In this document: positions 29,718 to 41,916 of the stretch, piece after piece | Layout of the letters: every line of letters begins with the position of its first letter | Numbering within the stretch: the first letter of the stretch is position 1 | Notes under the pieces: model-generated | What the model saw: the letters and a program-made list of their open reading frames with translations, nothing else | Told to the model about the DNA's origin: nothing | Database searches by the model: none | Position numbers and translations under genes: made by a program | DNA from: Cyanobium sp. FGCU6 | GTDB taxonomy: Bacteria > Cyanobacteriota > Cyanobacteriia > PCC-6307 > Cyanobiaceae | Assembly: GCA_024958655.1 (NCBI GenBank) | Contig: JANWUR010000016.1 | Location: 1-64,000, forward strand | Length of the DNA: 64,000 bases | Direction of reading: 5' to 3'

Positions 29718-30092
29718 GTGTCGACGACAAACCTGCCCCACTACGCCGATCGCGAGCATCCTCGCCACGCCACGCCCATGGCGGGGGATGAGGCCATCAA
29801 GGCCAGCGTTGAGATCGAGGCGATCGAGATCCACGGGATCCTGGCCAACATCAGCCGCTTCGGCGCCTGTGTGACGGTGCCTCAGGAACTGGCCCTGATG
29901 GCGCTGCCGCGAACCGTGCTCACGCTGCGGGCCACCCTGGGCACCGAAACCGTTTCGATGTCGGCCGACCTCTGCTGGATCCACAACGAGGTGGGCCAGA
30001 CCACCATCGGCATGAGCTTCCCTTACGGCCCCCTGGAGAGCGGCACCTTCCTTGATGCCTACATGGAAGGGGCACAGGCGGCAGCCGCCTGA
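29718..30092 (+). CDS. PilZ-like domain protein
   Basis: A 124-residue soluble protein from GTG. It has the split PilZ signature: REHPRHATPM near the N-terminus (RxxxR) and ANISRFGACVTVP (D/NxSxxG) about 30 residues later, then a beta barrel with DLCWIHNEVGQTTIGMSF. PilZ domains bind cyclic-di-GMP and control motility or exopolysaccharide. The Gly-Ala at the end of the second motif is acceptable. Single gene convergent with ssrA. Confidence 0.7.
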   Translation: MSTTNLPHYADREHPRHATPMAGDEAIKASVEIEAIEIHGILANISRFGACVTVPQELALMALPRTVLTLRATLGTETVSMSADLCWIHNEVGQTTIGMSFPYGPLESGTFLDAYMEGAQAAAA

Positions 30093-30148
30093 CGGGGTGC
30101 TCACCGGCCGGATGCTCTCCGGGACAGGCTCGGCTCCAGAACGATGAA

Positions 30149-30166
30149 GGGGGCCTTCCAGCCCCC
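30149..30166 (-). terminator. hairpin at the 3' end of ssrA
   Basis: Read on the minus strand, GGGGGC-TGGAAG-GCCCCC followed by TTCATCGTT, directly after the coding half of tmRNA. The U-tract is weak. It may also serve the convergent PilZ gene. Confidence 0.55.
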
Positions 30167-30443
30167 ATGGATCATTTGGGTGACAAGGCTGATCTCACCC
30201 CGTCTCCGTTAAGAGTGTCAGGCAGCCACAGGGGCGGCTTGACGGGAGAAACGAACGATGTTGTTCGCTGTTACGGGTTTGCTCTCACCGAGCAGGCTTC
30301 AGTCACCCTCCTCATGCCCCGTCGAAACCATTGCAGCCCCGTGTGGCTTCCGGTGGAACCGGGAGCGGCGGAATGGAGCTGAGCGGAATCGAACCGCTGT
30401 CCGAAACACTGGTGTGGATCACCTAGTCGGTCCGAGGACCGAC
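30167..30443 (-). ncRNA. ssrA: tmRNA, circularly permuted two-piece form
   Basis: On the minus strand the acceptor piece comes first. It has a GTCGGTCC/GGACCGAC hairpin, then the T-arm GCGGTTCGATTCCGC and the 3' acceptor strand CAGCTCC plus A ending at 30374. An intervening 33 bases follow, then the coding piece starting GGGGCTG at 30340 and GGTTTCGACG. GGGGCTG pairs with CAGCTCC to make the tRNA-like stem. The tag frame (30268 to 30218) reads ANNIVRFSRQAAPVAA and stops with TGA. Split permuted tmRNAs are known in alpha-cyanobacteria. A CATACT -10 element lies at 30450-30455. tmRNA rescues stalled ribosomes with SmpB. The outer ends are approximate. Confidence 0.93.
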
Positions 30444-30650
30444 GCCTGAAGTATGGCATCGGCATCCTTGGCCTGGAGAGGAACGGGATGGTGGGCATGA
30501 CCGAACCCGAGGCGCCCGGAACCGGCCGGCCCGTGGCCCGGCAGGGATCCTGACGGGCCTGCTGGCGGCCCTGCTGGCAGCCCTGATCGGCACTGCCGCC
30601 GTGCATGCAGCCCTGTGGCTGAGTGCGAGGAGACCCTGGCCATCTCACCG

Positions 30651-31514
30651 CTAAGCCAGCTTCACCCAGCTCGCCTGGGTTGGGTCGCCGCCGATCGTGC
30701 AGAACCAGAGGCTCGCGATTTCCACGCCTCTTTGCTCTTCATCGGCCCAGACTGTCGACAGGAGCTCTCCGGCGGTTGATTTTTCAAGTGATGTCGGATC
30801 CTTGATGCGCAACGGCACGAGCAGGAGCTGCGCCATTCGCCTGGATTGCAGGATCGCCGCCTGCTCCACTGGCGAGGTGGCAAGCACGCCTGCACCGCTC
30901 TTACCAGTGGCAACGACACCCGTCTGCCCCTCAGCAACCACACCAGGGCCGTTGCCTGATTCAGCGCGAACACCGGGAAGTCCTCGTCCGAACACACCGG
31001 GGCCCTTGGTGCCATCGCCACTGACACCGGTTTCGCCGCGTCCCAGCACCCCGGCCTTCTGCGACCCCTCGAAACCGAGATCGCGCGCCGTTGCCTGCTG
31101 ATAGCCCACAACGCCGTTCAGGCCGGTGCCGAAGACACCGACCGACGTCCCGCCACCGACACCGAGCAAACCTGCACCCACAGCATTTTCAATGCCCCTG
31201 TCGCGCGCCATGGCATGGACATAACCAACAACGCCATTGACTCCCTGCGCAATCAGGCCATTACCGGCCGGGATCGTCCCGATCAGGCCGCCGGTCGCGA
31301 AAGAAATCGTTCCCTTGGCGTGGATGGCGTCGACCCCACGCGGCGTCGACACGAGCACCATGTCATTATCCGCCGATACTTTCAGAACAAAATCATCCTC
31401 ATAGCCGTCCGGCGACTCTTCGCCATTAATGGCCTGCAAAAGGGTTCGTTTATCGCTTTTGTTTGTGCGACCAACAACCATGTCGTCGCCCGATTCATCA
31501 GCTCCGCTTGCCAT
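30651..31514 (-). CDS. Gly-Val repeat protein, function unknown
   Basis: A 287-residue protein without signal peptide. The centre (residues 90-215) is a series of short repeats of the form GVxGxGxxGV (GVFGTGLNGVVGY, GVLGRGETGVSG, GVFGRGLPGVRA, GVVAEGQTGVVA), expected to form a beta-solenoid. The N-terminal part is acidic; the last 70 residues (LLLVPLRIKDPTSLE ... WVKLA) look like a compact beta domain. Similar repeats occur in large secreted or phage-tail-like proteins, but no family is recognised. Confidence 0.6.
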   Translation of the reverse strand: MASGADESGDDMVVGRTNKSDKRTLLQAINGEESPDGYEDDFVLKVSADNDMVLVSTPRGVDAIHAKGTISFATGGLIGTIPAGNGLIAQGVNGVVGYVHAMARDRGIENAVGAGLLGVGGGTSVGVFGTGLNGVVGYQQATARDLGFEGSQKAGVLGRGETGVSGDGTKGPGVFGRGLPGVRAESGNGPGVVAEGQTGVVATGKSGAGVLATSPVEQAAILQSRRMAQLLLVPLRIKDPTSLEKSTAGELLSTVWADEEQRGVEIASLWFCTIGGDPTQASWVKLA

Positions 31515-41619: not shown

Positions 41620-41657
41620 GATGTGGCGGGTGGTGAGCCGGTGGAAAGAAAGATGAA

Positions 41658-41739
41658 TGCGGATGGCGAGACTTGAACTCGCAAGGCCGAAGCCACACGC
41701 CCCTCAAACGTGCGTGTCTACCAATTCCACCACATCCGC
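41658..41739 (-). tRNA. trnL-GAG: tRNA-Leu (GAG)
   Basis: On the minus strand the sequence folds into a full cloverleaf of 82 bases. The acceptor stem is GCGGATG/CATCCGC plus discriminator A. The D-loop carries TGGTAGAC, the anticodon loop is TTGAGGG with anticodon GAG, a class II variable arm follows (TGGCTTCGGCC), and the T-arm is GCGAGTTCAAGTCTCGC. CCA is not encoded. Confidence 0.97.
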
Positions 41740-41916
41740 ATGGATCGGCTGCCCGTGGTGTCCGCACCGGAGGTGCGGCGACCGGGGCTTCCGGGTGGGG
41801 TGAACGGCAATGCCGCCCACGGGTGTGGACTATACCCATCGGCGTCCCTCCGGGCCAGCGGGAGGCCGTGTGAGCGCTGATACAGTCCGCCCTGGCCGGC
41901 CGCCCCGCGTTCTCGG

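Follow-up and report, generated by a model that had tools for sequence, protein, structure and literature searches.

Circularly permuted tmRNA is made as a precursor which is cut by tRNA-processing enzymes into two pieces that stay base-paired and that, with SmpB, tag stalled chains, as set out in PMC11915505 and PMC1242208; for Prochlorococcus, confirmation of two molecules by Northern hybridisation is reported in PMC1242208, and according to PMC11915505 Alpha- and Betaproteobacteria have permuted tmRNA too. The systems compared here are represented in Rfam by cyano_tmRNA (RF01851, gathering cut-off 70 bits), by tmRNA_permuted (RF04321, gathering cut-off 47 bits), a general model that spans three bacterial groups and has no base pairs beyond those of the tRNA domain (PMC11915505), and by the standard one-piece tmRNA (RF00023).

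Within the window (the whole 64,000-nucleotide stretch of Cyanobium sp. FGCU6 DNA that was analysed), the gene for a circularly permuted tmRNA (ssrA) is present in full on the minus strand at 30459-30150. Cmscan with Rfam 15 aligned it to RF01851 over the whole model (1-288 of 288) with 306 bits and the same piece order, helices and tag core, and the E-value of 1e-88 puts a chance origin far off. Its tRNA-like domain was matched by RF04321 at 30423-30218 on the minus strand (143.6 bits), and ARAGORN, which is independent of the Rfam models, agreed in calling a permuted tmRNA, at 30127-30463, with the tag ANNIVRFSRQAAPVAA. Every RF01851 feature that can be tested from sequence was found in the window gene. 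The covariance-model search that had been proposed as a check on the original prediction was thus carried out, and the prediction that the acceptor half precedes the tag-bearing half, made with no strand given, was borne out on the minus strand by ARAGORN and both permuted models, as was the tag by ARAGORN. The span first predicted, 30167-30443, is a fair core of the gene that falls short of its whole modelled length, leaving part of the 5' leader and the 3' hairpin outside (the leader hairpin starts at 30443, and 30167 lies just short of the 3' hairpin), and the expectation that such a gene is easily missed by standard annotation did not hold here, since ARAGORN and two Rfam models detect it.

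The gene differs from standard one-piece tmRNA in its order, while its function is expected to be alike; a standard tmRNA was ruled out, RF00023 staying under its cut-off of 47 bits both at the locus (16.7 bits) and across the genome (best match 25.7 bits). The form, distribution and mechanism of the gene are already published and nothing in the gene itself is new. The window gene is almost certainly the chromosomal ssrA of its cyanobacterium, in the permuted form, for a two-piece tmRNA, that is normal in the Synechococcus/Prochlorococcus/Cyanobium group, into which it would be placed by named records with the same arrangement.

Parts and pairing of the gene

Reading along the minus strand, a 5' leader hairpin (30426-30443, helix 1) stands ahead of the acceptor piece, which on its probable mature ends covers 30374-30423 and holds the 5' strand of the long duplex, the T arm (AGCGG TTCGATT CCGCT, 30382-30398, helix 4, within the Rfam match), the 3' strand of the acceptor stem (30381-30375) and the discriminator A at 30374, after which no CCA is encoded. 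An intervening segment of 33 nt (30341-30373), presumably removed, separates this from the coding piece, which from its likely 5' end to the tag stop covers 30218-30340 and starts with GGGGCTG, the 5' strand of the acceptor stem (30340-30334). The two pieces are joined by a duplex of 17 pairs, whose 3' strand lies at 30301-30321 and pairs with 30423-30402. ARAGORN places the tag reading frame with its stop at 30218-30268; the opening codon is one for Ala, the last two residues of ANNIVRFSRQAAPVAA are Ala-Ala, and tags that are the same or similar are found in relatives. A hairpin surrounds the end of the tag frame (30217-30243), followed by a conserved stem-loop 3' of the tag (30178-30207, helix 8) and by a 3' hairpin (30150-30165, helix 9) in a terminator-like position with no clear T run. 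Scans of 30050-30700 found neither a sigma-70-like promoter nor a consensus terminator.

For the conservation of this structure, 72 genomes were chosen out of the 148 with an RF01851 match: the 30 best-scoring, 40 picked for breadth and for the window's own genus, one further genome (G004) and the window. With the RF01851 structure as printed, 91.4% of cells were paired and 18 of 67 pairs had changes on both sides. None of 500 shuffles reached four of five structure measures, the covariation score included; 60 of the 500 reached the fifth, which counts further pair types, and when partners were slid by 1-3 columns pairing was only 33-52%. Changes on both sides were seen in 6 of the 7 pairs of helix 1 and in 5 of the 6 pairs of helix 9 (96.2% and 98.8% of cells paired in the 72 sequences), and in 3 of the 17 pairs of the duplex joining the pieces (helices 2 and 3, with 99.8% and 98.5% of cells paired); helix 8 was paired in 99.7% of cells. 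The T arm was paired in all 72 without ever varying and is therefore uninformative by itself. The acceptor stem, with its seven pairs, was fully paired with G3-U70 and a discriminator A in the window and throughout the 72 chosen genomes, none of which encodes the CCA. G3-U70 is an identity element for alanine.

The tag-end hairpin (30243-30217) was paired in 47.6% of cells in the printed register and in 90.1% after a shift in which the outer pairs were moved by one column, the three inner pairs were kept and the innermost was dropped, which suggests that the RF01851 consensus structure is one column out of register in the outer part of this hairpin. No pair of the shifted hairpin had changes on both sides; the whole structure after the shift was 97.8% paired, with 66 pairs of which 16 had changes on both sides, and in this mended register 23 of 500 shuffles reached the fifth measure. 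The 21-residue tag found in two relatives (L024 and L074) is probably an artefact of a search pattern that started too early.

Maturation and the intervening segment

By analogy with relatives and with the published work, transcription, cleavage, CCA addition, charging, tagging and degradation in this strain would proceed from a single precursor transcript of the minus strand, from which tRNA-processing enzymes would excise the 33-nt segment between the two acceptor-stem strands, leaving an acceptor piece and a tag-coding piece that the acceptor stem and the 17-pair duplex keep joined. CCA would then be added post-transcriptionally, charging with alanine and binding of SmpB would allow entry into stalled ribosomes, and ANNIVRFSRQAAPVAA would be appended to the nascent chain, marking it for proteolysis. 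The mature RNA of this strain would, as in Prochlorococcus, consist of two molecules.

The intervening segment, predicted to be 33 bases long and found to be so (30373-30341), sets the window gene apart from all 30 best-scoring relatives, in which it is 11-13 nt long with no fold. Across the 72 genomes its length ranged from 5 to 68 nt, and short segments are over-represented in this sample because 30 of its genomes were chosen by score. Outside those 30, a length of 11-13 nt was found once among the 15 genomes from the window's genus and twice among the 27 remaining ones, and 12 of the 15 congeneric segments were of 33 nt or more (33-42 nt). The window segment can form a hairpin at 30366-30346; alone, it was matched by 2 of 200 shuffles folding as low, and with one flanking base on one side and three on the other it folded at -10.7 kcal/mol (z -2.4, 3 of 200 shuffles). 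Within the genus, 9 of 15 segments, the window's included, folded better than all but at most 7 of 200 shuffles; four others (L037, L041, L042 and L043) had no such excess (14 to 102 of 200 shuffles) and two (L036 and L039) had no fold, the comparison with shuffles covering all but the segments of 12 nt and 6 nt (L039 and L057). A role in processing is possible for the segment hairpin.

It is very unlikely that the gene, although permuted, gives a precursor that is never cut and functions as a single RNA molecule. The length of the window segment, which exceeds that in the 33 of 72 genomes with 11-13 nt, and its ability to fold alone would be in keeping with this, whereas the two Prochlorococcus molecules reported from Northern blots (PMC1242208) speak against it, as does the CCA, which is unencoded in all 72 genomes, so that charging requires prior release of the acceptor 3' end. 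A cleaved, two-piece tmRNA is the reading that we retain.

Genome context and further copies in relatives

The genome, of 4.07 Mb in 69 contigs and with a completeness of 99.97%, yields a single RF01851 match (E up to 0.001) and one SmpB gene (G000:C53:212602-213024, 176 bits against a cut-off of 27). The tmRNA gene lies between an ORF with a PilZ domain (29718-30092) and an ORF without a Pfam match (30651-31514). A mechanically called ORF of 125 amino acids that overlaps it on the minus strand (30271-30648) is most likely spurious. An ordinary tRNA-Leu (gag) is found in the window at 41657-41740, also on the minus strand.

The presence of partial tmRNA copies in four relatives (G095, G022, G035 and G003) raises the idea that the window locus is a decayed or duplicate tmRNA left behind by a genomic island while another locus supplies the working gene; this is rejected as very improbable, given a single, full-length match of 306 bits in a genome this complete and the intactness of every acceptor and T-arm pair.

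The copies in relatives are of several kinds. In G095 a partial copy with the tag and the 3' part and without a tRNA-like domain (L083 1501-1728, minus strand) lies at a distance of about 1.08 Mb from the complete gene. Three other genomes, G022, G035 and G003, repeat part of the tmRNA 3' region 1-13 kb downstream (L343 13054-13097, L344 9217-9263 and, on the reverse strand, L345 1479-1545), the repeats aligning over 44, 47 and 69 positions with identities of 98, 85 and 80% respectively. Between the tmRNA and the repeat, proteins with primase and VapE-like domains are encoded in G022 and G035, joined in G035 by a phage-type integrase, and in both the ORF adjoining the far repeat is without a Pfam match; from their sequences the repeats in these three genomes look like the marks of insertion at the tmRNA by genomic islands or phage satellites. 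G004 has a second, diverged mini permuted tmRNA (L084 1501-1719, minus strand), which scored 61.6 bits with RF04321 and 65.9 with RF01851, under the cut-off of the latter, and which has an ORF for an HNH endonuclease domain close by; it is perhaps prophage-borne. Its tag may be ANNIKRTERTLAIAA, ARAGORN calling another, unlikely one.

Distribution and the tags of cyanophages

Of 150 genomes sampled within the window's order, 148 had an RF01851 score over the cut-off, in accordance with the prediction that split tmRNA is known in this lineage and with PMC11915505 and PMC1242208. The two without a match (G046 and G138), in which a T-arm pattern with up to two mismatches was also absent, are draft assemblies of about 240 and 30 contigs, so an assembly gap is possible. 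From the phylum sample, 36 of 292 genomes passed the cut-off, all 36 in the window's family, and 45 more had matches at E up to 0.001 below it; no family member seems to have been missed, since the unmatched genomes, among those listed, begin at the level of the same class. The permuted arrangement was found in at least 119 named stretches, and among the 80 listed all 80 are cyanobacterial by title (Synechococcus, Prochlorococcus, Cyanobium, Vulcanococcus, or a family or phylum name only). The description of the split gene as a firm taxonomic marker stands for cyanobacterial chromosomes to the extent that the model of the cyanobacterial type passed its cut-off only within the window's family in the phylum sample, but it has to be qualified because cyanophages carry the same type of tmRNA, and the permuted form occurs in other bacteria as well.

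Scanning IMG/VR with a loose pattern gave at least 120 viral stretches (L218-L337), and among the matches listed ARAGORN found a tmRNA in 87 of 120; 28 of those 87 have the core of the host tag (N[NK]IV.[FL].R). All 28 core-bearing loci passed RF01851 with 82 to 171 bits, L218, L233 and L281 included; L281 may be host DNA, because its tag is identical to that of a host genome (L059). One Rfam run, on 20 loci with L218, L233 and L281 among them, found a permuted tmRNA in 19 (the miss being L262), with 7 over the RF01851 cut-off, these including the phage records S-SSM7, S-CAM1, Sf-FS3 and AG-345-P14. Cyanophage permuted tmRNAs lie at L338 769-1071, L339 755-1023, L340 713-1002 and L342 754-1030. 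None of five phage stretches viewed had an annotated tmRNA, one record (AG-345-P14) bearing no annotation whatever. The viral acceptor stem was intact with G3-U70 in all 28 loci that could be parsed out of 32 (L234, L253, L300 and L321 being left out). Two-piece tmRNA in phages has itself been reported before, with 53 found by ARAGORN and AG-345-P14 named, in PMC9004378.

All 118 host core tags, from at least 119 named loci, end in VAA. The C-termini of the 28 viral core tags among the matches listed were VAA (9), VAV (6), ATA (5), VTA (3), ATV (3), VVA (1) and QTV (1), counts that do not represent independent events because the sequences are related; among the distinct viral core tags in the matches listed, 5 of 20 end in VAA. 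The remaining 59 permuted viral tags in the matches listed end in AA in 51 cases. The start positions of phage tags are uncertain and certain ARAGORN tags are plainly wrong (for example ASQVCLEAHGPA). The final residues of the ssrA tag are important to ClpX. We would only tentatively suggest, on the sequences of these tags, that cyanophages, having a permuted tmRNA of their own, retain the core of the host tag and rewrite the C-terminal residues that are constant in hosts, which would let the phages rescue ribosomes while altering the speed of degradation or the protease; a literature search, its scope ending short of the supplementary table of PMC9004378, found nothing in print on the C-termini of cyanophage tags.

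For this cyanobacterial group, the window gene confirms a conserved feature in one more genome and gives it clean coordinates, and its comparison with relatives yields a testable side lead on phage-borne tmRNA tags. If the suggestion were true, it would mean ribosome rescue by phages with a changed decay rate or protease for the tagged proteins.
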